A stretch of 64,000 nucleotides of DNA from Nitrospirales bacterium. Its GTDB lineage: Bacteria > Nitrospirota > Nitrospiria > Nitrospirales > UBA8639. Under the pieces are notes generated by a model. That model ran no database searches, was not told the origin of the DNA, and saw nothing but the letters and a program-made list of their open reading frames with translations. The stretch lies in the NCBI GenBank assembly GCA_021604005.1, contig BQIV01000025.1:1-64000 (forward strand), written 5' to 3'. Positions 158 to 60,222 of the stretch are shown here, one piece after another. Numbering within the stretch: position 1 is the stretch's first letter; the number at the start of each line of letters is the position of its first letter. The translations under genes and the position numbers were made by a program.

Positions 158-946
158 ATGGATAATGGCCTGCGAGTGCATCACGGAGTGGATAATGGAA
201 TTATTGAACCAACAAGCAATTACGTTCGATTTATCGCATGTCGTGAAGTTGCGCATAAGACGATGGCTTTATATTTTGAACGGCCACCTGACTTCCGATT
301 CGACGCCGGACAATGTATTGAACTGAGGGTCTTGGATCCGCCTGAAACGGATGCAGTTGGTGATACTCGCGTGTTCACGATTGCGAGTGCGCCGTCGGAA
401 AATGGCCTTATGGTGGTAACCCGGGTACGTGACACCGCCTTTAAACGAGTGTTGATGCAAATGCCGCTTCAAACGATGGTGAATATTGAAGGACCATTTG
501 GCAAGCTGACATTCCCTGAACATATCGAAAAACCTTTGGTCTTTCTGGCAGGCGGTATTGGGATTACTCCGTTTCGGAGTATGTTGATCAATGCCGTAGG
601 TAATCAACATGCTCATTCTGTCATACTCTTTTATGCAAACCGTCGTCCGGAAGATGCTTCCTTTCTCCTAGAGCTGGAAGATCTTCAGAAGACATTGCCC
701 AACTACACCTTTGTCCCGACGATGACGCAACCCAAACATTCTCACGTATCCTGGACTGGAGAAATTGGATACGTAGACCAGGCTATGTTAAAGAGGTATG
801 TGCGGAGAATTGTTAGCCCCCTCTATTATATCGTCGGCCCATCTGCCATGGTCCGTCATTATCGGTCAATGCTGGGAACAGCGGGTGTCCGTGAACATGA
901 CATTCGAACGGAGGAGTTTATTGGGTATTATAGCGAATCCAAATAA
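158..946 (+). CDS. Ferredoxin-NADP reductase-like FAD/NAD(P)-binding flavoprotein
   Basis: A 262-residue flavoprotein of the ferredoxin reductase superfamily, expected to move electrons between NAD(P)H and a redox partner through FAD. The FAD barrel occupies about residues 20-120 and has the flavin-binding motif RVFTIAS. The nucleotide-binding half carries GGIGITPF near residue 130 and ends in the typical EEFIGYYSE tail. No Fe-S domain is attached, so the partner must be a separate protein. The ATG at 158 is favoured by an AGGAGA site about ten bases upstream. A GTG at 188 is an alternative and would remove an odd duplicated DNG segment at the N-terminus. The gene starts about 20 bases after the end of an IS30-type element, so its native promoter may have been displaced. 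Physiological partner unknown. Confidence 0.82.
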   Translation: MDNGLRVHHGVDNGIIEPTSNYVRFIACREVAHKTMALYFERPPDFRFDAGQCIELRVLDPPETDAVGDTRVFTIASAPSENGLMVVTRVRDTAFKRVLMQMPLQTMVNIEGPFGKLTFPEHIEKPLVFLAGGIGITPFRSMLINAVGNQHAHSVILFYANRRPEDASFLLELEDLQKTLPNYTFVPTMTQPKHSHVSWTGEIGYVDQAMLKRYVRRIVSPLYYIVGPSAMVRHYRSMLGTAGVREHDIRTEEFIGYYSESK

Positions 947-947
947 G

Positions 948-1022
948 TTCCAAACAGACAAATACAACGAACTCTGTGCGGTACAACGTTTGAGTCAGCG
1001 AAAGTTATTCAAAACGGCTATA
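948..1022. repeat. 75-base dispersed repeat, copy A
   Basis: This stretch begins right after the flavoprotein stop codon. It aligns without gaps to 56011-56085, with 53 of 75 identical bases by hand count. The best-conserved parts are TTCCAAAC at the start, ATACAACGAACTC in the middle and GGCTATA at the end. Neither copy contains a start codon near its beginning, although both are open in one shared frame. Function unknown. Confidence 0.55.
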
Positions 1023-1141
1023 AGTGGAAATTTCGCGAAGGATTGTCACGACTGTCTTGCCTGCCTGTTGTGCTAGAGAGCCATGTACACGCTACATGTC
1101 TTCGCGCCGGGTACGGTTCGACTTCTCCGAGCCGGTGATTC

Positions 1142-1822
1142 ATGACGAATATGGGACATCTGTTGTTGTCTATTACAATGAGCATAGTACTGGTGGAATT
1201 CGCGCACTCAGAGAAGCCCGTCGATGAACAAGAACACCGGGTGATTGATGCGGTGATGCAACGAGATCTTGCGTCGGTCAAGCAATTGTTAGAGCACGGG
1301 GCGAATGTAGAAGGTCACGATGCCCATGGACGCACGGCGTTATTGATTGCGGTTGCCGACAACTCCATTGAAATTGCGTGTGCCTTGATCGACGCCGGTG
1401 CAGACGTCAATGCTCAAGACCTTCGAATGGATAGTCCGTTACTGTTGGCCGGGGCCGAAGGTAGACTTGAGATTTTACGATGTATCTTAGACGCGAATCC
1501 AGACTTCACGCGCTATAACCGTTTTGGGGGAACGCCCTTGATTCCTGCATGTGAACGAGGACATCTTGACGTTGTGAAGTTATTACTCAAGACTGATGTT
1601 GATATCGATCATGTGAACAACTTAGGATAGACGGCGCTTTTGGAAACCATCGTATTGAGTCATGGGGGATCTCGACATTAACGAATTGTCCAATTATTAG
1701 TCGATGCGGGAGCCGATATTCAAATTGCTGATAATGAGGGAATAACTCCGCTGGCCCATGCCAGACGAAATGGGTTCCGTGAAATCGTGACAATTCTTGA
1801 CTCAGTAGGGAAATCCAACTGA
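1142..1822 (+). pseudogene. Ankyrin-repeat protein interrupted by two in-frame stop codons
   Basis: Translation from 1142 gives a hydrophobic, signal-like N-terminus followed by ankyrin repeats, with motifs such as GRTALLIAV, NAQDLRMDSPLLLA, GGTPLIPACERGHLDVVKLL and a broken repeat start. The frame hits TAG at 1628-1630 and TAA at 1679-1681. It then continues in the same frame through LLVDAGADIQIADNEGITPL, a clear further repeat, to a natural TGA at 1820-1822. No indel is needed, so two nonsense changes split one gene. Both are explainable by single transitions (TGG or CAG to TAG, CAA to TAA). The 162-residue product ending at 1630 might still fold, because ankyrin arrays are modular. Secreted or periplasmic location is suggested by the N-terminus but is not certain. 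No convincing ribosome site was seen. Confidence 0.75.
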
Positions 1823-1919
1823 CGCCGCAATCGCGGAAAAGGACGGTTTTTAAAGGTGCCCTCATGGAGAGAACTGGCCAGCCATTATAATGTTGTCTTG
1901 TTGTCAGAAGGAGGATCAG

Positions 1920-2480
1920 ATGAATGGAACGAACTGCCCGCGCCTCAGTGGTATCTGCTCTTGGATTACAGTCGGACTCATCACATGCTGTACCATTGGG
2001 CTTGTCGTAGACAGAGGGGCGGCGGAGGAATTGCCGCGTCAGGGAGTGCTTCCACTGTCATTGGCGACGAAAGCCGCTCATGCCGCAGTCGACACATGTC
2101 TGGCTGACGGGTATCGAGTCAGTGCGACGGTGGTGGATCAAGGCGGAAATATCCGCGCGGTGTTGAGACAGGATGGAGCCGGGCCGCATACGTTAGAAAG
2201 TAGCCGGAAGAAGGCCTACTCTTCGGCGAGTTTGAGACAGCCTACTGAAAAGTTAGCTGCCTTGATTGCCAAAATGCCGGCACTTCAAGGCCTTCAGCAT
2301 ATGAATGAGCATATCCTTCTCCTTGCTGGAGGATTACCTATTGAGTTGCATGGTGAGGTGGTCGGCGGCATTGGGGTGGGCGGTGCACCTGGAGGACATC
2401 TGGACGTCGCGTGTGCGCAGGCCGGGTTGAATAGTATTGGTGCCGGCTCAAAGATGCCGCCCCACGAGTCAGATCGATAA
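1920..2480 (+). CDS. Exported GlcG/HbpS-like (DUF336) protein
   Basis: A 186-residue protein from the ATG at 1920, chosen because AGAAGGAGG lies at ideal distance upstream; an upstream in-frame start at 1890 has no such site. Residues 1-40 look like a signal peptide with a hydrophobic stretch around ITVGLITCCTIGLVV. The mature part is the GlcG/HbpS fold: AAHAAVDTCLADGYRVSATV, then VDQGGNIRAVLRQDGAGPHT, SRKKAYSSAS, and the glycine-rich GEVVGGIGVGGAPGGHLD near the C-terminus. Family members include extracellular haem-binding HbpS and GlcG of unknown role. The export signal fits an envelope location. Haem binding is not shown by the sequence. It is probably transcribed alone, 97 bases after the broken ankyrin gene. 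Confidence 0.82.
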   Translation: MNGTNCPRLSGICSWITVGLITCCTIGLVVDRGAAEELPRQGVLPLSLATKAAHAAVDTCLADGYRVSATVVDQGGNIRAVLRQDGAGPHTLESSRKKAYSSASLRQPTEKLAALIAKMPALQGLQHMNEHILLLAGGLPIELHGEVVGGIGVGGAPGGHLDVACAQAGLNSIGAGSKMPPHESDR

Positions 2481-2840
2481 CGTAGGTCGTAGTCCCCAAA
2501 TAAGCGATAGTGTGAATAATCGACTCTTTGACTGCCCCTGAAGCTATGTGAGGGCATGCGTCAAATCCTTATTTGATGAGGACAAAAGCCCTCTATGCCT
2601 TTGGCGTCAACAGGTTCAAGGAAATTGTGCTCCACACATTTTGTACTTGTGACAGATTCTGAATTTGACGCACGGATCTTGCTTGGTGGTATACATATTG
2701 TACCGGAGTAGATTTCATATCCTCAGCAGTCTACAATGAGCACTGTCTGTCGCCTAAGACCTGTGTGGTTGATCGGCGCAGTTCTTTCTACCCTTCAAAG
2801 GCCATTCCATTATTCACCCTGTCCTCAGAGGAACCCTATC
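2481..2840. other. Intergenic region with possible promoter
   Basis: About 360 bases between the GlcG-like gene and the start chosen for the IPT-domain protein. Apart from the weak promoter-like pair listed separately, no gene, clear terminator or repeat was recognised. Confidence 0.5.
2665..2695 (+). promoter_or_regulatory. Possible sigma-70 promoter upstream of the IPT-domain gene
   Basis: TTGACG at 2665-2670 and TATACA at 2690-2695 resemble -35 and -10 boxes. The 19-base spacer is longer than the optimum of 17, so this is only a candidate. It lies about 145 bases before the ATG at 2841. Confidence 0.25.
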
Positions 2841-3272
2841 ATGATGAATTTATCTGCACTACTCGCAGCGCTCATGCTGGTGATGAATGTTGTGTTTGTT
2901 GACGTTGTTCGTGTCATGGCTCAATCGCCGACTGGAGAGTCGGCAACACCCAAAGCCATTGAAGGCTTTGACGAAGACAAAGTCAAAGACGATCCGATTT
3001 GTGATTCAAGTCGCCGTCCCGTGATTGAAACCGTCGAACCTGATGAGGTAAAGCCGGGGGATAAAATTGTTGTTACGGGTGATTTTGGTAAGAGTAAGGA
3101 ATGTTTGCATCACGTCACCATTGGGAGCGAAGAAGGAGAGCAGCCGACGTATGTCGATGCAAAGCATGTGGAAGTGACGGTTCCCAATTCTGCAAGGCAA
3201 GGTATGACCTTTCTGAATGTCCAGACGGGAGGTGGATCGGCGCGGGCTGCGATCTTAGTGCAACGTAAATAA
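2841..3272 (+). CDS. Exported IPT/TIG-domain protein
   Basis: A 143-residue protein starting at the ATG at 2841, which has an AGAGGA site upstream; an in-frame upstream extension to 2736 lacks the look of a protein. Residues 1-28 are a signal peptide (MMNLSALLAALMLVMNVVFV) ending near VMAQS. A charged linker follows. Residues about 60-143 form one immunoglobulin-like IPT/TIG domain: PVIETVEPDEVKPGDKIVV, TGDFGKSKECLHHVTI, then a strand-rich end with VPNSARQGMTFLNVQTGG. Such domains bind carbohydrate or protein at the cell surface. Two cysteines (DPICD and KECLH) could form a disulfide in the periplasm. Specific function unknown. Confidence 0.75.
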   Translation: MMNLSALLAALMLVMNVVFVDVVRVMAQSPTGESATPKAIEGFDEDKVKDDPICDSSRRPVIETVEPDEVKPGDKIVVTGDFGKSKECLHHVTIGSEEGEQPTYVDAKHVEVTVPNSARQGMTFLNVQTGGGSARAAILVQRK

Positions 3273-3290
3273 GACGAATCTCGTCTGTCT
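3272..3290 (+). terminator. Weak hairpin after the IPT-domain gene
   Basis: AGACGA, loop ATC and TCGTCT form a six-pair hairpin directly after the stop codon, followed by the pyrimidine-rich GTCT. Shape and position suit a terminator, but the T tract is poor. Confidence 0.3.
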
Positions 3291-3468
3291 TCTGGCCGTT
3301 ATCTCATACGACGCCGATTCTCTCCCTCAACGTTTGTGAGGACGTGAGCGTTGTGTTTGTTTTCACGTTCACGGTATCTGTCCTCGTGTGTTCACTCTTC
3401 ACAATAACGAATCATCATGGTATCGTTCGGAGTTTGTTGATTATTTTTGTCTTAAAGAAAGGAAGCGT

Positions 3469-3933
3469 ATGCCTACACAAAGAAACGTCAAACGTACCGT
3501 GAAGAATGTTGCGAATACCGCTGCCAAGGCCAAACGTACAGCAAGCAAGAAGACGACATCTGCCGTCCAACAGGCTAAAAAGAAGGTCGGTAGCAAGACA
3601 AAAAAAGCTTCTCAGACGCTTTCTGATGTCAAGAAGAAAGCAACCCGTACTATAAAAACAACCAAAAAGGAAGTGGCAAAGAAAACCAAAGGTGCTTCTC
3701 GAACAGTCGCCGATGCGAAGAAGGAGGCGAGTAGGTTGAAACAGGTTGGGAAAAAGAAGGCAACCGTCGGTGTCAAAACCGTGAAAAAGAAAACACGAGC
3801 GGTGAAGGGAAAAGCTCAGCAAGTGGCAAAGAAAACTGGCGAAGCCGTTGGGAAAGTCATGGGGAAAGCCTGGGGTACTGCAGAACGGGTGGCTCAAAAA
3901 GCGGTGAAGGCGGGGAAACGGTTCGTCGATTAA
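3469..3933 (+). CDS. Lysine/alanine-rich histone H1-like protein
   Basis: A 154-residue, extremely basic protein made almost entirely of Lys, Ala, Thr, Val and Ser. KK and TKK clusters recur about every ten residues (KKKVGSKTKKASQ, VKKKATRTIKTTKKEVAKK). The composition matches bacterial histone H1-like proteins that bind and condense DNA without sequence preference, and predicts an amphipathic or disordered rod. The ATG at 3469 is preferred over the in-frame upstream start at 3388 because of the AAAGAAAGGAAG purine tract just before it. The repeated SRTVADAKKEAS and SQTLSDVKKKAT segments suggest internal duplication. A second lysine-rich protein, at 44288, differs by having an acidic tail. 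DNA binding is inferred from composition alone. Confidence 0.75.
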   Translation: MPTQRNVKRTVKNVANTAAKAKRTASKKTTSAVQQAKKKVGSKTKKASQTLSDVKKKATRTIKTTKKEVAKKTKGASRTVADAKKEASRLKQVGKKKATVGVKTVKKKTRAVKGKAQQVAKKTGEAVGKVMGKAWGTAERVAQKAVKAGKRFVD

Positions 3934-7677: not shown

Positions 7678-8859
7678 CTAGGCTTTGAGTTGAGGGGATT
7701 TACGAAGACTAAAGAAAAATACACTTCCCGCTCCGGGTGAACTGTGAACGGACAATGTTCCTCCGTGAAGTTTAGCGAGTTCTTGAGAAATAAACAGGCC
7801 AAGTCCCAAGCCAGCCACGGATGGTGAGGCATCATTGCGAATTTGATAGAGACGATCAAAAATGTGTTCAAGCTGGTCTTTGGCAATTCCAGGCCCTGTA
7901 TCAGAGATGGCAATCTTCACACGGGTCTCGTCCTCGACATCATCCGTAACCTCGACTCGTATTTCTCCGTCTTTTGAGGTGTATTTCAACGCATTGCTGA
8001 GAAGATTATTTAATATCTGACGAACGCGATGTTGATCCATGATGACCGTGGAAAGATGCGAAGGCAGCGAGTAACTGAGGTGAATGCCTTTGTGCTGTGC
8101 CGTTGGCGTGAGAGATGTGACCACGTGATGAATGAGATGCTCCAGTGAATTGGGTTGTGGGTCAACACTCAGCTTTCCGGTCTCCAGTCGCGTGATATCA
8201 AAAAGATCATTAATGTTTTGTCGTAACGAGTCACAACACTCATCAACAATTTCTAAATATTCTTGTTGATCTGGCGTGAGTGGGCCTGCGAGGCCTTCGA
8301 GCATGATTTCGACGAATTCGGTCGCGGCGGTGAGAGGGGTTTTTAGTTCATGGGCCAGTACATGATAAAATCGTTGAATCTCTTCGTTTTTTCTCACAAG
8401 ATTGGCATTGGCCTGTTGTAATTGACGGTGGTGTTCGCCAAGGGTCTTTTGCAGTTTCGTTTTTTCGACGGCATGATAAATGGCACGTTCGAGGGTTTCA
8501 GATGACATGGACCCTTTGGGAATATAGTCGGATGCACCCGACCGCATGGCTTCAAGCACAACCGATTCATTTCCCTGTCCGGTCAATAAAATGACGGGTG
8601 CCTGTAAACCTCGGCCATGAATCTCATGTAGCAGATCGATGCCGGAGTGGCCTCCGAGCTGATAGTCGATCAGGCCTATGTCATGCGTATCTTCCTTCAT
8701 CATCTCCAAGCCACGTTCATATGATTCGGCCCAGTCAATTTCGAAGTGTTTTCCGGGAACATCGTGAAGAAGTGTTTGGGTAATCATCGCATCATCTTCA
8801 TCATCATCTATGAGCAACACCTTGAGTGAGTGTGTCTCACGATGTGTCGTTGACCTCAT
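7678..8859 (-). CDS. Receiver-histidine kinase hybrid, first structural gene behind the riboswitch
   Basis: A 393-residue protein from the ATG at 8859. The receiver (about residues 12-130) has IDDDEDD and phosphoacceptor Asp65 in LIDYQLGG. A coiled coil follows, then a HisKA domain with His170 in VLAHELKTPL and an ATPase domain with NLLSNALKYT, DTGPGI and GLGLGL. No membrane segment is present. The frame stays open up to a GTG at 8958, but 8859 is preferred: its ATG overlaps the TGA of a nine-codon leader ORF that has an excellent ribosome site, a typical arrangement for coupled translation. A class I cyclic-di-GMP aptamer lies about 160 bases upstream in the same transcript, so expression should respond to that second messenger. 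Downstream are a CheY-like protein and another hybrid kinase. Confidence 0.85.
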   Translation of the reverse strand: MRSTTHRETHSLKVLLIDDDEDDAMITQTLLHDVPGKHFEIDWAESYERGLEMMKEDTHDIGLIDYQLGGHSGIDLLHEIHGRGLQAPVILLTGQGNESVVLEAMRSGASDYIPKGSMSSETLERAIYHAVEKTKLQKTLGEHHRQLQQANANLVRKNEEIQRFYHVLAHELKTPLTAATEFVEIMLEGLAGPLTPDQQEYLEIVDECCDSLRQNINDLFDITRLETGKLSVDPQPNSLEHLIHHVVTSLTPTAQHKGIHLSYSLPSHLSTVIMDQHRVRQILNNLLSNALKYTSKDGEIRVEVTDDVEDETRVKIAISDTGPGIAKDQLEHIFDRLYQIRNDASPSVAGLGLGLFISQELAKLHGGTLSVHSSPGAGSVFFFSLRKSPQLKA

Positions 8860-8885
8860 CGACGTATCATTCTTTCTAGGCGCAT
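8856..8885 (-). CDS. Putative nine-residue leader peptide coupled to the kinase gene
   Basis: ATG at 8885 reads MRLERMIRR and stops with TGA at 8858-8856. The stop shares the ATGA overlap with the kinase start at 8859. AGGAGA lies eight bases upstream of its ATG, and it is the only strong ribosome site between the riboswitch and the kinase. The peptide has five charged residues (four Arg, one Glu) and two Met. It may act purely as a ribosome-loading or coupling device downstream of the aptamer. Existence is inferred from spacing and overlap only. Confidence 0.5.
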   Translation of the reverse strand: MRLERMIRR

Positions 8886-9019
8886 TCGTCTCTTCTCCTG
8901 TGAGTGATTGTGATCCCCGATCATGACGATGACTGCCATGAAGAACCAGCAAGAGCACGGAGTGAGCATGAAATGCCTATTTCGATAGGAGAGGCGCAAG
9001 AGCGGAGGGGAGGTTGTGC

Positions 9020-9108
9020 GTAAGCGGCAACCAGGCGTACCTCTGAGTGAAATTGACTTCACTAGGTCCCTTGGCTTTGCGTCCCATCCTTACGAATGGT
9101 TTGCGTTT
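9020..9108 (-). ncRNA. Cyclic-di-GMP class I (GEMM-I) riboswitch
   Basis: On the minus strand the RNA reads ACGCAAACC from 9106. Next comes a six-pair P2 helix (CCATTC with GGATGG) capped by the GNRA loop GTAA, then the hallmark GGGACGCAAAGCC at about 9085-9073. A P3 helix follows, with an extended hairpin (AGTGAA pairing with TTCACT), then AGAGGTACGCCTGGTTGCC at about 9043-9025, matching the conserved 3' side of P1. Order, loop type and conserved bases match the class I aptamer that binds cyclic-di-GMP. It sits in the leader of the receiver-kinase operon running from 8859 down to 5926. The short hairpin CCTAT-CGAA-ATAGG after it lacks a T tract, so control through translation or an unusual platform is more likely than simple termination. 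Confidence 0.9.
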
Positions 9109-9206
9109 TTCACTATACCTAACTGTTATCGGTCTAGCTGGAGGAAGCTTTAGGTGACGTATGGCCCTCTCAATGCCAAGTGCTGAATTGTGGAAATAGT
9201 TTATAA

Positions 9207-9223
9207 GTTCTTCAGAGAAGAAC
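9207..9223. repeat. Perfect 17-base inverted repeat upstream of the riboswitch
   Basis: GTTCTTC-AGA-GAAGAAC is a perfect palindrome with a three-base centre, between the riboswitch and the divergent kinase gene. It could be an operator for a dimeric regulator or a short hairpin. It lies about 100 bases upstream of the aptamer, where the promoter of the minus-strand transcript is expected. Confidence 0.45.
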
Positions 9224-9380
9224 CCTTCTGGTCCTATCGTGTTCATGCGCAATGTGTGGAGTTGTTACCGTGCAAATCGATTGGCTTCCACAATGAGTCA
9301 ACTCACCGGAATTGTTTTCTTAAGACAGATTGTCGAGAGGCCGAACAAGGAAGTAAGTCATAAAGGGAGAAGATGCAAAA

Positions 9381-11804
9381 ATGATCTCGGCTCAATTGCT
9401 TGACAATGAATCTCAGCGCCTCGCTGCTCTCGATCAGTATCACGTGCTCGATACGATGCCAGAGGAATCGTTTGATGACCTGACAAGACTTGCGGCTTCT
9501 ATTTGTCACACGCCCATTGCTCTTATCAGTTTGATCGATGAACATCGCCAATGGTTTAAATCAAAAGTTGGACTTTCGGCCACTCAGACTCCTCGAAATA
9601 TCGCCTTTTGTGCACACGCCATTCGCGAACCTGGAATTTTTGAAGTCCCCGATGCCTTGCACGATGTCCGGTTTGCCGATAATCCGCTAGTGACGATGGA
9701 TCCGAACATCCGGTTTTATGCGGGATCGACCTTGCAGACGTCCGATGGGTTGGCGATTGGCACGCTCTGCGTTATTGATCAGACTCCACGTACACTGACA
9801 CACGCACAACGAGAGGCATTAACCGTCCTCTCCCGGCAAGTGATGACGCAACTCGAATTACGAGTACGACTGGCACAGGAACGCCAGTATAAAGACTATT
9901 TTGAACATCTGTTGGATCTTGTGCCTAACGGAATGATCATGATCGATAGAGACGGCGCAATCCTCTTTGCCAATACTCACATTATCGAGCAATTCGGCTA
10001 TGCGCAAGGAGAATTGATTGGACAGCAGGTCGAAATCCTTATCCCTGAACGTTTTCGTCACAGTCATCCGCAGTCTCGAATGGCATTCTTTGCGTCGCCG
10101 ACCGCACGTACGATGGACAGAGGAAGGAATCTCTATGGGCTTCGAAAGGACGGCTCAGAGTTTCTTGTCGATATCGGGTTAACCCCTCTCACCACGTCGG
10201 GAGAGACTCGTGTGTTAGCTTCCGTTATCGATATGACAGCACGGCAGAAGGCAGAGGACGCTTTAAGTCAAAGTGAGTCACTGAACGCGCTCATTCTGCA
10301 ATCTGCAGGAGAAGGTATTTACGGACTCGATGCGCAGGGGAATACGACTTTTGTGAATCCGGCAGGGGCTGCCATGTTGGGATACACGCCGGAGGAATTA
10401 CTCGGTGTTCCCATGCATCCTACGATGCATCACACCAAAATGGATGGATCACCGTATTCTCGTGAAGAATGTCCCATGTATGCCGCCTTTAATGATGGGG
10501 CTATTCATCGTGTTGAGCATGACATTCTGTGGCGGAAAGATGGGAGTAGTTTTCCTGTCGAATATACGAGTACGCCCATTCGTGACGATCGTGGACAGCT
10601 CATTGGGGCCGTGGTGACCTTTCAAGATATTACGGAGCGTCAACGCATTCAAGAGCAACTTCGTCTTGTTATCGAAGCGATCCCAAGTGGGCTGATCATG
10701 ATTAATGAAGATGGAGTTATTGTTTTGGCCAATCAGGTCCTTGAAGAGTTGTTTGGATATGAACACGGTGAGTTGTTGGGGCAGACCATTGAGGTGTTGG
10801 TTCCGGAACGATTTTGTGGTGCGCACCCAGAGCATCGTGCCAGAGTCTTTGCCCATCCTGAGTCTCGAGTTCTTGGAGGGACTCGTGATCTCTTTGGGCG
10901 ACGAAAAGATGGGTCGGAATTTCTTGTGGAAATCGGCTTGTGTCCTGTCCCGACGAAGATGGGTATCTTGATGCTTGCTTCGGTTGTCAACGTGACGGCT
11001 CGTAAAAAGGAAGAGGCCACCTTGTATCAATATATGGATGATTTACATCGCTCTAATCAGGAATTGGATGACTTTGCCTATATTACATCCCATGATCTTA
11101 AGGAGCCGTTACGTGGAATCTTCAATTACTCTACGATTCTTCTGGAAGACTATGGGCATCAACTAGATGAAGAAGCCCGGTCTCGCTGTGAAACTCTTCT
11201 TCGTTTATCGAAACGGATGGAAGACCTCATTAATTCGTTGCTTTATTATTCTCGAGTCGGCCGTACGGAGCTGGCGGTGGGTCCGAGCGATCTGCAGAAG
11301 ATGCTCGGTGAGATTATCGAGTCCTTGGATATCCGGTTGAGGGAATGTGGCGTTGATATTCGTATTCCAAGATCTTTGCCAACGGTTACCTGTGATTATG
11401 TACGAATCGGCGAAGTCTACCGTAATCTCATCACCAATGCCATGAAATACAATGATAAAGATGAGAAATGGATAGAAATCGGCTATATCCCGGTCGAGGA
11501 CTTGCCAGACGAGCGGCGAGCGACGAGCAACGAGATGCCAATCTTCTACGTTCGCGATAATGGAATCGGGATCAAGGAGAAGCATCTGTCGAGTATCTTT
11601 CGTATTTTTAAACGCCTACATGGCCGTGAGCAGTTTGGTGGCGGGACCGGAGCCGGATTAACCATCACGAAGAAACTAGTCGAGCGTCATGGAGGAAGCA
11701 TTTGGGTGGAGTCAACGTATGGGGAAGGGACCACCTTTTTCTTTACCTTGCAGAGGAGTGTGATCGATGGGAGCCTCGCCACAACAGCCAATTCTTATCG
11801 TTGA
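9381..11804 (+). CDS. GAF-PAS-PAS-PAS histidine kinase
   Basis: An 807-residue soluble sensor kinase. A GAF domain (about 10-165) opens with RLAALDQYHVLDTMPEESFD, followed by three PAS domains at about 170-290, 300-420 and 425-550. PAS1 and PAS3 share a GRxLxGxRKDGSEF-type core and are sister copies; PAS2 resembles the second PAS of the 986-residue kinase. The HisKA helix has His571 in ITSHDLKEPLRG, the phytochrome-like type, and the ATPase domain has NAMKYN, DNGIGI and GGGTGAGLTI. No membrane span, so ligands are sensed inside the cell. The ATG is nine bases after GGGAG. The gene overlaps the next regulator by 38 bases, implying a tight transcriptional and translational unit. Confidence 0.92.
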   Translation: MISAQLLDNESQRLAALDQYHVLDTMPEESFDDLTRLAASICHTPIALISLIDEHRQWFKSKVGLSATQTPRNIAFCAHAIREPGIFEVPDALHDVRFADNPLVTMDPNIRFYAGSTLQTSDGLAIGTLCVIDQTPRTLTHAQREALTVLSRQVMTQLELRVRLAQERQYKDYFEHLLDLVPNGMIMIDRDGAILFANTHIIEQFGYAQGELIGQQVEILIPERFRHSHPQSRMAFFASPTARTMDRGRNLYGLRKDGSEFLVDIGLTPLTTSGETRVLASVIDMTARQKAEDALSQSESLNALILQSAGEGIYGLDAQGNTTFVNPAGAAMLGYTPEELLGVPMHPTMHHTKMDGSPYSREECPMYAAFNDGAIHRVEHDILWRKDGSSFPVEYTSTPIRDDRGQLIGAVVTFQDITERQRIQEQLRLVIEAIPSGLIMINEDGVIVLANQVLEELFGYEHGELLGQTIEVLVPERFCGAHPEHRARVFAHPESRVLGGTRDLFGRRKDGSEFLVEIGLCPVPTKMGILMLASVVNVTARKKEEATLYQYMDDLHRSNQELDDFAYITSHDLKEPLRGIFNYSTILLEDYGHQLDEEARSRCETLLRLSKRMEDLINSLLYYSRVGRTELAVGPSDLQKMLGEIIESLDIRLRECGVDIRIPRSLPTVTCDYVRIGEVYRNLITNAMKYNDKDEKWIEIGYIPVEDLPDERRATSNEMPIFYVRDNGIGIKEKHLSSIFRIFKRLHGREQFGGGTGAGLTITKKLVERHGGSIWVESTYGEGTTFFFTLQRSVIDGSLATTANSYR

Positions 11805-56248: not shown

Positions 56249-58525
56249 TTAGGACTGAGGGGGAGGAAAGTGTTGTCGGAAAATGTGATGCACGCGTTTC
56301 ATGCGATCTTGAATTTCTCTTTCCAGCGCCACGGCGCCATCATTCCAGTTTTGAGTGACAAACCCCAAGCGTCGAGCAAGAAAGATGAAGCTATCTGAAT
56401 GGGATTCCGGTAACAGCAGGTCTTGTGCATGCCCCCGGACAATACGAAGCGCATCGATCAATTGACGAAAGAATAGGTAATCGTCATGGAGTATGTGTTC
56501 TTCATCGGTTAGAAGGAGTTGACGCTGTTGAAGTATGTGTAACGCCTCAAGTGTATTAGATGTACGAAGCGCTGGGAGGCGGTGGCCATGTATCAGCTGG
56601 AGGTATTGGGTGAGGTATTCAATGTCGATAATACCGCCAGGACTATATTTGACATGAATGGACTGGCCTGGCACAAGTTCTTTCATTTGTCTGGCGCGGA
56701 GCCCCAAGGCAATGTCGAGTGGCCAGGGGTGAGCGCTATAGACAAATCGGTCTCGATGCGATTCAACTTTTTGTCCCAATGTTTGATCGCCGGCGACGTA
56801 CCGAAGTTTGATCATTGCTTGACGTTCAAATGGAGCGGCTGAACCCTGGTGATCATAATATTTGCAAATTTCTTCGAACGAATTCGCCAAGAGGCCTTTA
56901 TCACCGTATGGTCGCAGACGCGTGTCGACATGAAAGATGCCTTTATTTTTAGCTTCAATCCAACGAAGCATTTCTTGCACGAGTTGTTCAAAATAGTCGG
57001 TTGAAAGCCTGTGGCGTGTGCGTTGTGCGGTTTTGTTCATTTCATAGACACAGAGCACTTCGATGTCAGATGCATATCCGAGTTCTTTTCCTCCCAATTT
57101 CCCTAACCCGAATATAGCGAATACATATGGTGGGGTACCCTGCTTAGGGAGTTTAAACTGTTTGGCAAGTACATCCTGGGCTTCGCGCATCGCGTAGTTA
57201 AGCACAACGTCGGCAAGGTTCGTTAACGCGAGTGAAAAGTCCGGCACCCATACGGTATCCAGCATATGCTTCATGTCGATTCGAAACAGTTCTTGATCTT
57301 TGAATGTGTTCAGACGGGCTCTCCGCTCATCGGTAGATTTGCAACCTTTGAGTTGAGCGGTGAGGGCGCGCTCAAGATCGGCCTTTTCACGAATAATGGG
57401 GCCGTTCAGGAAGTCCGCCATCGCCGGCAGCAGATTGGCATGTTGCCGGCGAAGCAGGTCTTCCCAGAGAAAATCGCTACTGCCAAACAGTTTCGCGAGG
57501 TGTCCGAGCAGGGATTGCTGGCGTAAGAGAGAAAATGTTTGAGACTGCTGTTGATCGCCTTGTAAATCATCTAATAATTGGTCGAAGTGCTCAAGCGCTT
57601 TCCCGGGATCGGGGGCCCATGTCAGAAAATGTGAAAATTCTTTGATGAGCGCAGCGGTGGACATGAGTTCTTGTTGTTCATCGACATCGTCGATTTTTCC
57701 ACCTGCTCGTCCCTGCACGAATAAGGCGTTATGCGCGGTATTGCCCTTGACTTCTATGGTAGCTTTGGAAATGTAGACGCCCCGCATGGTGAGGGCATTG
57801 GCAAATGTATATAAAAACGCCGGCGTATCGGTGGCACGAATGTCCATGACCGTGGCATCTGGTGCTCGGTTGTTATGAAATTGGACTTCAACCGGGTGGA
57901 CGATATCCGAAACATGGGCTGTGAGTTGTTCGAGTGTTTCAAGGAGTGCACGATTGACGTGACTTCGAACTTTTCGAAATTGCCGGGTCTCGAGTAATCG
58001 AATCATATCGAACACCGATGCTTTGAATTTCGTTTGTTGCGCACGGTGAAACACGCATCCCGGCAGCAGTTTGACCGTGAATACGTCGACCACTTTTTTT
58101 CGAGAAAGCCCGCGAATCGTATTGCGTGCGTGTGCAGACCCCGGTTTCGCATAGCGTGGCCGGTTCGAGCTGGAGGATATGGATTGTTCTGCCGTCACCC
58201 GTTCCGTCAGGGTGTAAATCAAGGCATGTCGAATGTCGAGTCCGACGGAGGAGAGTAGTCCACAGAGCATGGCAAATTCGGAATAATAATCATAGGCGAT
58301 AATCGTTATTTCATAGAGATGCTTCGGGTATTTTTGAATGGTGATGGCGCAGGGGTGTTCGGGGCTCAGCGTGCCGACTAACGAGAGATGTTCCGTGATC
58401 ACGTCACGGGAAAACTGTTCGAAATACTCCGCATCCATTCGATGCACAAAATCCTTAACAATGAGAGGAGAAAGGTGCGGACAGCTGCGTTGTAATTCTT
58501 GAATTCGATTGTGTTGATCCATCAC
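56249..58525 (-). CDS. ACT-domain protein fused to a GlnE-type nucleotidyltransferase
   Basis: A 758-residue protein. The N-terminal third holds two ACT-like domains (about 50-120, ITIQKYPKHLYEITIIAYDY; about 215-285, VMDIRATDTPAFLYTFANAL), the second close to the sensor pair at the end of GlnD. From about 300 it is GlnE-like: SSDFLWEDLLRRQ, then FGLGKLGGKELGYASDIEV with Asp487 and Glu489 in the metal-binding motif, HVDTRLRPYGDKG and KYSPGGIIDIEYL. GlnE adds and removes AMP on glutamine synthetase. Normal GlnE is about 950 residues with two such halves; here one half carries amino-acid sensors. The second Asp is replaced by Glu. It is divergent from another GlnE-type gene, 104 bases away. Confidence 0.82.
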   Translation of the reverse strand: MMDQHNRIQELQRSCPHLSPLIVKDFVHRMDAEYFEQFSRDVITEHLSLVGTLSPEHPCAITIQKYPKHLYEITIIAYDYYSEFAMLCGLLSSVGLDIRHALIYTLTERVTAEQSISSSSNRPRYAKPGSAHARNTIRGLSRKKVVDVFTVKLLPGCVFHRAQQTKFKASVFDMIRLLETRQFRKVRSHVNRALLETLEQLTAHVSDIVHPVEVQFHNNRAPDATVMDIRATDTPAFLYTFANALTMRGVYISKATIEVKGNTAHNALFVQGRAGGKIDDVDEQQELMSTAALIKEFSHFLTWAPDPGKALEHFDQLLDDLQGDQQQSQTFSLLRQQSLLGHLAKLFGSSDFLWEDLLRRQHANLLPAMADFLNGPIIREKADLERALTAQLKGCKSTDERRARLNTFKDQELFRIDMKHMLDTVWVPDFSLALTNLADVVLNYAMREAQDVLAKQFKLPKQGTPPYVFAIFGLGKLGGKELGYASDIEVLCVYEMNKTAQRTRHRLSTDYFEQLVQEMLRWIEAKNKGIFHVDTRLRPYGDKGLLANSFEEICKYYDHQGSAAPFERQAMIKLRYVAGDQTLGQKVESHRDRFVYSAHPWPLDIALGLRARQMKELVPGQSIHVKYSPGGIIDIEYLTQYLQLIHGHRLPALRTSNTLEALHILQQRQLLLTDEEHILHDDYLFFRQLIDALRIVRGHAQDLLLPESHSDSFIFLARRLGFVTQNWNDGAVALEREIQDRMKRVHHIFRQHFPPPQS

Positions 58526-58553
58526 GATAAGAGTACACTGAAATGGAGCTATA

Positions 58554-58584
58554 TTGTAAGGTCTCTAGTCGAATCGTATATAAT
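58554..58584 (+). promoter_or_regulatory. Promoter between the divergent GlnE-type genes
   Basis: A perfect TATAAT at 58579-58584 with TTGTAA at 58554-58559 (19-base spacer), about 45 bases before the plus-strand start codon. The 104-base gap must drive both genes. Exact -35 is uncertain. Confidence 0.45.
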
Positions 58585-58629
58585 AGCAATTCTGTACCAT
58601 AGCTCTCTTGAACGTGAGTCGCACGTCTT

Positions 58630-60222
58630 ATGGGTGATAGGCTTCTTCCCGATCCGACCCCGGTATTGCTTTCATCGACCTTAGAGAGTCAGGACGTGGT
58701 TCGTCTGCTTGCCCCGTATGGTTTTGCGCGTCCGGCGCAAGCTGACGCCAATTTACAGGCGATGGCCGGTCATCCGGAAGATCGTCGGGCCTTGTCTTCC
58801 ATTCTCGCGGAATTGCTGTGCGCGGTGGGAGAGACGGCTGATCCCGATCAGGCCTTAAATGCGTGGGAGCACTATCTTGCCACGGGGATTCAACGACGAC
58901 CGCTCTTTCAATTCTTAGGTCAGGCTCCACGAATGTTGCATTGGTTGTGTCTGATATTTGGAAATAGTCCCGCCATGGCCGAGACGCTCATTCGTGATCC
59001 GATGCTGGTGTATTGGCTTGTTGAAGAGCGGGTGGAAACGCATTCTCCGACTCGCCGGCAATTGCAGAACAGTCTCCATACATCACTGGCCATGTTTCAG
59101 AGTTATGAACTCAAAGGAGATGCGCTTCGGCGTTTTAAACGGAAGGAGATGCTTCGCATTGGTATTCGAGACCTGTTGCGCGTGGCGGATGTCTCCGAAA
59201 CGGTGTGCTCACTGTCAAATTTGGCCATAGTACTCATTCAAGCTGCATATGAGCTTGTTGATGAACATCTGCGTGCACAACATGGGCCTCCGAGTCATCG
59301 TGATCGTCGTGGACGATTGATACAGACCGGTTTTGTAGTTCTGGGGATGGGGAAGCTGGGTGGGGGAGAGCTCAATTATAGCTCCGATGTGGATCTGGTG
59401 TATGTCTATGAAACAGCAGAGGGGGAAACGCAATCGACGAATGGGCAAATTACGGTATCCAATGATCAATATTTTGAGACGCTGGCCAGGGAGTTGACAC
59501 ACGTGCTTGATGCGACGACAGATGAAGGTGCGATTTTTCGTGTCGATTTACGGTTGCGTCCTGAGGGAGATGTTGGAGCGGTCGCGAAGTCACTGGAGGA
59601 TTCCGTGCATTACTACCGAACTCGTGGACGAGACTGGGAGCGAATGGCGTTTATTAAAGCCTACCCGATTGCCGGTGCGAAAGACGTCGGGCGGTCTTTT
59701 TTGCGAAAGATTCGACCGTTTATTCTGGGCCAGACGCAGGACCCATCTCATCACGTGATTCAGACCGTCCGATCTCTTAAAGTCAAAATTCATGCAAAAC
59801 TGCTTCAACGCGGTGAAGAAACACGGCATGTAAAGTTGGGCATAGGAGGCATTCGCGAAATCGAATTCTTGGTGCAAGCTATTCAATTGATGCATGGACG
59901 CCACTCGCCACATGTGATGGAGCGCAATACCTTAAAAGCATTGGATCTCATCCGTGATATGCAGATTTTACCGGCGGAGTCCGTTCAACAACTTGAAGTG
60001 GCGTACCGGTTTCTTCGTGATCTTGAACATAAGCTGCAGATGGTGAATGATTTGCAAACGCACGTCTTGCCGCGTGATATCGAAGAAGTTGCGAAATGCG
60101 CTGTGCGGATGGGGTACGACAAAGGTGATGTCCCCACCGAAACCGCTCAAGCTTTTTTAGATGATTATGACCACCATACGTCAATTGTGCATCGCCTGTA
60201 TCAAGAAACCATTGGGGTGTAG
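58630..60222 (+). CDS. Single-half GlnE-type nucleotidyltransferase
   Basis: A 530-residue protein equivalent to one half of glutamine synthetase adenylyltransferase. The catalytic motif is GMGKLGGGELNYSSDVDLVY with Asp253 and Asp255, followed by FRVDLRLRPEGDVG, RDWERMAFIKAYPIAG and GIGGIREIEFLVQAIQLMHG. A helical domain at about 420-530 (RFLRDLEHKLQMVNDLQTH) ends the protein, where a full GlnE would continue into its second half. The GKLGGxELNYSSDxD pattern is that of the N-terminal, deadenylylating half of classical GlnE. It is divergent from the ACT-bearing relative, and the pair probably works together. No glnA or glnB in the window. Confidence 0.85.
   Translation: MGDRLLPDPTPVLLSSTLESQDVVRLLAPYGFARPAQADANLQAMAGHPEDRRALSSILAELLCAVGETADPDQALNAWEHYLATGIQRRPLFQFLGQAPRMLHWLCLIFGNSPAMAETLIRDPMLVYWLVEERVETHSPTRRQLQNSLHTSLAMFQSYELKGDALRRFKRKEMLRIGIRDLLRVADVSETVCSLSNLAIVLIQAAYELVDEHLRAQHGPPSHRDRRGRLIQTGFVVLGMGKLGGGELNYSSDVDLVYVYETAEGETQSTNGQITVSNDQYFETLARELTHVLDATTDEGAIFRVDLRLRPEGDVGAVAKSLEDSVHYYRTRGRDWERMAFIKAYPIAGAKDVGRSFLRKIRPFILGQTQDPSHHVIQTVRSLKVKIHAKLLQRGEETRHVKLGIGGIREIEFLVQAIQLMHGRHSPHVMERNTLKALDLIRDMQILPAESVQQLEVAYRFLRDLEHKLQMVNDLQTHVLPRDIEEVAKCAVRMGYDKGDVPTETAQAFLDDYDHHTSIVHRLYQETIGV

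Follow-up and report, generated by a model that had tools for sequence, protein, structure and literature searches.

Divergently encoded GlnE halves and a GlnD-like ACT region on the putative adenylylating half in a Nitrospirales bacterium and its relatives

In the textbook bicyclic cascade, GlnD senses glutamine, PII relays the signal, and GlnE acts on glutamine synthetase (GS; GlnA). In a Nitrospirales bacterium, the 64,000-nucleotide stretch analyzed here (hereafter the window; positions 1 to 64,000 of the forward strand of contig BQIV01000025.1, assembly GCA_021604005.1) carries the two halves of GlnE as separate, divergent genes. One half, the putative adenylyltransferase (AT) half, bears an N-terminal tandem ACT region resembling the sensor end of GlnD, and we refer to this protein as ACT-AT. 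The other corresponds to the deadenylylating, adenylyl-removing (AR) half. This make-up, found again and again throughout the class, suggests a GS adenylylation switch in which two separate enzymes act in opposition.

The open reading frames (ORFs) lie at 56249-58525 on the minus strand (ACT-AT, 758 amino acids) and at 58630-60222 on the plus strand (AR, 530 amino acids). Each contains a single Pfam GlnE domain and a single GlnD_UR_UTase domain (758-residue protein, E = 1.1e-42 and 4.5e-14, respectively; 530-residue protein, E = 1.2e-65 and 7.8e-28), so that each ORF represents one half of a classical GlnE, just as an earlier reading of the letters without database searches (the sequence-only reading) had proposed. 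Neither ORF reaches the NCBIfam cut-offs for the full-length GlnE equivalog. A complete glnE elsewhere in the genome, which that reading had named as the finding that would speak against it, was looked for: in a PF03710 scan of the draft (92 contigs), no full-length glnE was found, and the only two matches are these two genes. The observation of a split GlnE with an ACT-bearing half is confirmed, and its repeated occurrence in other members of the class puts it far beyond chance.

To identify each half, 78 GlnE halves were placed in a maximum-likelihood tree: 26 split AR proteins, 26 split ACT-AT proteins, and the N and C halves of 13 fused GlnEs, among them that of E. coli. A single branch, with a support of 99.8 in the SH-like approximate likelihood-ratio test (SH-aLRT), separates the split AR proteins and the fused N halves from the split ACT-AT proteins and the fused C halves. 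Half-specific motifs agree with the tree, with GGIREIEF in AR halves and GG(I/L)xDIE(F/Y) in AT halves. In GlnE, the N-terminal end is deadenylylating and the C-terminal end adenylylating (PMC12409994). Altogether, these comparisons support the 530-residue protein as the AR half and the ACT-bearing protein as the AT half, which answers the phylogenetic check that the sequence-only reading had called for. The stem of the AT group is long (1.17, versus 0.32 for AR), which calls for caution about the exact placement of AT but not about the assignment of AR.

The N-terminal part of ACT-AT is related to GlnD over its whole sensor end. Residues 23-289 match residues 620-843 of the NCBIfam GlnD model TIGR01693 (E = 7.3e-16), and an HHalign comparison built on 34 ACT-region sequences aligns residues 21-283 with residues 661-883 of the GlnD encoded in the same genome (probability 98.6%, E = 4.8e-16), covering both ACT domains and the segment preceding them. 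The proposal that one half bears two ACT domains like those of the GlnD sensor therefore held, and the likeness extends over the N-terminal ~260 residues to the entire GlnD C terminus. An AlphaFold2 (AF2) model computed from 32 sequences (mean predicted local distance difference test score, 82) places two ACT-type alpha/beta units before the GlnE half. The N-terminal part of this model matches tandem-ACT amino-acid binders (aspartate kinase, Z = 11.6; the regulatory domain of threonine deaminase, Z = 9.0), and its AT half matches the E. coli GlnE halves (1v4a, Z = 38.1; 3k7d, Z = 36.1). With a match to the GlnD tail at one end and to a GlnE half at the other, ACT-AT has the appearance of a chimera in which a GlnD-type tail precedes the AT half of GlnE.

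Within this architecture, all on the minus strand, a GlnD-like pre-ACT segment (residues 21-58; 58352-58465) with the motif D-x-x-Y-F...I-x-x-H, located by HHalign and with His46 invariant in 32 sequences, is followed by ACT domain 1 (residues 59-179; 57989-58351), ACT domain 2 (residues 213-298; 57632-57889), and the AT half (residues 301-758; 56252-57625), which consists of a nucleotidyltransferase and a helical C-terminal domain. The ACT boundaries follow the AF2 model and the loop counts, and Pfam ACT_ACR9_3rd matches ACT2 in 20 of 32 relatives. No HD domain is present in ACT-AT (Pfam), whereas the GlnD of the same genome has one.

The loops of the ACT pair differ from those of GlnD. In canonical ACT domains, a glycine occupies the loop between the first strand and the first helix at the ligand site; ACT-AT lacks it. 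ACT1 has D-Y-F-S-E-F in place of the P-G-type loop of GlnD, with a glycine (at position 82) in only one of 34 sequences; in ACT2 the loop is D-T-P-A-F-L, with alanine in 31 of 34 and glycine in three. At the aligned positions, GlnD has glycine in 25 of 27 sequences (ACT1) and 27 of 27 (ACT2). The altered loops are themselves strongly kept: Asp79, Tyr80, and Phe237-Leu238 are found in 34/34 sequences and Pro235 in 33/34. Such conservation suggests a ligand site that has changed rather than decayed. The ACT domains of GlnD are regarded as glutamine sensors (PMC3173338). From sequence, direct amino-acid sensing by ACT-AT is plausible; with the loop glycines altered, the region may instead bind something else or nothing.

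The catalytic motifs of the two halves also differ. A G-X11-D-X-D motif has been given for this kind of enzyme (PMC12409994). The AR half carries it as Asp253-Val-Asp255 (59386-59394, plus strand; both aspartates invariant in 16 sequences), and D-x-D is likewise present in all fused AR halves and in all the split AR halves shown. In ACT-AT, the corresponding residues are Asp487-Ile-Glu489 (57059-57067, minus strand), and D-x-E is found in all 34 split ACT-AT proteins, versus D-x-D in 13 of 13 fused AT halves. The third catalytic carboxylate, Asp534 in I-F-x-x-D-x-R-L-R-P (56924-56926, minus strand), is kept in 34/34 ACT-AT proteins. Kanamycin nucleotidyltransferase and other aminoglycoside adenylyltransferases use D-x-E for AMP transfer, and the model matches this fold more weakly (1kny, kanamycin nucleotidyltransferase, Z = 6.9; AadA, Z = 7.7). 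Catalysis by the AT half is plausible on these grounds. The aminoglycoside enzymes differ from ACT-AT in that they have small-molecule substrates, no second half, and no ACT domain.

The pair is widespread in the class of the split-bearing genomes, which we take to be Nitrospiria. Among class genomes at least 90% complete (n = 186; ACT-AT counted at E up to 1e-50), ACT-AT is present in 165, covering 36 of 45 genera. The named relatives are Nitrospirales bacterium NPIRA01, at 80% identity, and Nitrospira sp., at about 47%. Gene order was read in 34 distinct loci (35 less one duplicate), and in all of them the two genes are adjacent and on opposite strands: 31 pairs are divergent, three are convergent (families f5, f8, and f9), and none is co-directional. 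In the convergent loci L105, L106, and L108, the gene ends overlap by 4, 4, and 97 bp. At least eight genomes, some of them incomplete drafts, lack both halves together, and this joint absence is in keeping with the two genes forming one functional unit. Genomes G154, G025, G033, G034, G039, and G167, several of them small, lack both halves and keep the GlnA tyrosine.

In the other classes of the phylum, GlnE is of the ordinary fused type, mostly in frames of 930-1100 codons. A Pfam scan of four of these fused GlnEs found no ACT domain, and no match to the ACT part was found in 12 fused GlnEs of the phylum or in E. coli GlnE; on this sampling, the ACT part as an ancestral feature of fused GlnE was rejected. 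Outside the phylum, the comparison covered the named genomes in the close-relatives scan and the control genomes. The sensor part forms a single clade (100/100), and the sequences are most simply read as the outcome of a single early event in the ancestor from which the class descends. This clade sits on a long stem, of 1.59 changes per column, and is nested in no sampled GlnD group, so that no donor GlnD for the ACT part emerged from the tree.

The remainder of the nitrogen circuit is only partly represented in this draft. A GlnD of 901 amino acids with HD and ACT domains is encoded on another contig (L008, 5298-8003). Neither glnA nor a classical glnB was found in the draft; since both are present in all four congeners, their absence is read as an assembly gap. 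The draft was scored 100% complete, and the score did not reveal this gap. On a further contig (G000:C84; L007, 3-197, minus strand), a PII-like gene truncated where the contig stops follows immediately after a large gene (230-3481, minus strand) that looks like a DabA inorganic-carbon transporter subunit; its product is probably not GlnB but a PII-like protein linked to carbon. In most of the relatives' PII sequences read, the T-loop tyrosine is kept. The search for glnE, glnD, and glnB suggested by the sequence-only reading thus sustained the absence of a full-length glnE, while GlnD turned out to be present and classical glnB, missing here, is found in the congeners. The PII/GlnD cascade has not been replaced, given GlnD in the genome and PII with its T-loop tyrosine in the relatives. 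Nor does PII alone signal to classical GlnE, since glutamine also stimulates adenylylation by that enzyme (PMC6490700); the sequence-only reading, correct on the architecture, made the contrast with GlnE too strong.

In some relatives, the genomic surroundings link the pair to nitrogen genes. In locus L065 the pair is close to nitrate-transport-like, glnA, glnD, glnB, and amtB genes, and the transporter-like genes beside it tie this locus to nitrogen assimilation. There, nitrate/nitrite ABC transporter-like genes lie between ACT-AT and glnA (8004-11013, minus strand). A distance of no more than about 7 kb separates glnA from the pair in G007, G008, G012, G014, and G020. The GlnA target tyrosine of the NLYDL type is kept in every sampled split-bearing genome in which GlnA was found.

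The explanation that we consider probable is a class-wide GS adenylylation switch divided between two separate enzymes, with the AT enzyme under ACT control and PII retained. In this scheme, the minus-strand protein would transfer AMP from ATP onto the regulatory tyrosine of GlnA and so turn it off, and the plus-strand AR protein would remove AMP from GlnA by phosphorolysis and turn it on. The tandem ACT region would bind an amino acid, with glutamine, or another that signals the same nitrogen-sufficient state, as the likeliest candidate, and this binding would directly raise the AMP-adding activity of ACT-AT. GlnD and PII would persist, presumably still tuning one or both halves, with PII as a second input. 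Here, we infer the catalytic activity, GlnA as the substrate, the ligand and the direction of its effect, and the PII input. Several observations weigh against this explanation. Nearly all of the 34 sequences have lost the canonical loop glycine in ACT1, and most have replaced it in ACT2, and the D-x-E of the AT half departs from the published motif. Moreover, since this draft lacks glnA, the target site could be checked only in relatives, and because the GlnA tyrosine is also kept in genomes without GlnE, that check does not discriminate. Loss of the tyrosine in GlnE-less genomes, considered as a natural test, was for this reason uninformative.

The split switch could also be conventional in its control. 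In that case PII and PII-UMP would still govern AT and AR in the manner of E. coli, and the two ACT domains would be degenerate or structural (e.g., serving dimerization or docking) and sense nothing. The presence of GlnD, the intact T-loop tyrosine in the relatives' PII, the lost or changed loop glycines, and the long stem of the sensor clade would all fit; yet the altered loops are themselves strongly conserved, and both ACT units and the pre-ACT segment are retained class-wide, which is unlike decay. We therefore regard conventional control as rather unlikely, although it is the most serious competitor. Less likely again is a change of substrate or activity, whereby the D-x-E half would modify another protein, such as PII, or act as a catalytically weak regulator of AR. 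The class-wide replacement of aspartate by glutamate at the second metal-binding carboxylate and the long AT stem are compatible with such a change, and GlnD homologues that adenylylate PII are known, as with actinobacterial GlnD acting on GlnK (PMC4285133). Against this, neither the AT-specific region nor the third carboxylate varies, PII already has an ordinary GlnD to modify it, and, with no other GlnE in the genome, the AR half would be jobless without an adenylylating partner. In addition, D-x-E serves AMP transfer in the aminoglycoside enzymes, as noted above. Finally, a fused glnE broken by inversion or frameshift, for which the fragmented draft might be adduced, has a negligible chance of being correct: the pair occurs in 34 distinct loci, including ones in single-contig genomes, the frames are long and open with invariant catalytic residues, and an inversion cannot supply an added ACT part. 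Recurrence across the class rules out an assembly error or pseudogene.

Compared with known systems, the split pair shares with E. coli GlnE (b3053; 1v4a, 3k7d) both homologous halves, each with nucleotidyltransferase and helical domains, and the D-x-D of AR. Classical GlnE is one ~950-residue polypeptide with both activities, unlike the arrangement here of two genes on opposite strands, with an N-terminal tandem ACT region and D-x-E on AT. The pre-ACT segment and both C-terminal ACT domains of GlnD are homologous to residues 21-283 of ACT-AT, but ACT-AT lacks the GlnD-type uridylyltransferase and HD domains, has its ACT domains at the N terminus and changed loop glycines, and coexists with a separate ordinary GlnD. 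In Nitrospira moscoviensis, two adjacent genes (NITMOv2_1289/1290) are already annotated under the GlnE name (GlnEB; PMC6131200), and related Nitrospira contigs carry the same split pair as found here. In the passages of that paper considered here, these loci serve as abundance markers, with no mention of ACT domains, D-x-E, or regulation and no discussion of the split. In the open-access literature, from which other papers may be missed, we found no paper joining GlnE, an ACT domain, and an adenylyltransferase, and nothing relevant on separately encoded GlnE halves. What is new here is that the AT half carries a sensor of the GlnD type, that the two halves are encoded apart, that D-x-E holds throughout the class, and that the arrangement is so deeply conserved.

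Because the two starts diverge, the 104-bp region between them (58526-58629), delimited by the ORF positions and the locus comparison, must hold both promoters unless these lie inside the two genes. A search for sigma-54 sites near the starts gave one pattern match in 32 divergent loci and none in the window. Elsewhere in the window, a cyclic di-GMP-I (c-di-GMP-I) riboswitch aptamer (9023-9115, minus strand; 63.1 bits, E = 5.4e-10) lies just upstream of a response-regulator/histidine-kinase gene (7678-8958, minus strand), which is followed by more response-regulator genes.

ACT-AT appears to join the sensor type of the cascade's first enzyme to the half of its last enzyme that does the acting, and the opposing activities reside on separate chains, so that the long-standing question of how the GlnE halves avoid a futile cycle becomes directly testable by mixing the proteins. 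We give about even weight to the view that a whole class, Nitrospira nitrifiers among them, has uncoupled the adding and removing enzymes into genes that can be controlled separately, and that through the altered-loop ACT region an amino acid, which may not be glutamine, acts directly on GlnA control in addition to the PII cascade. This bears on nitrogen assimilation in Nitrospira, which oxidizes nitrite or ammonia for energy and must still assimilate nitrogen. The wiring of nitrogen control in nitrifiers of the Nitrospira type and in their relatives thus probably differs from that of E. coli.

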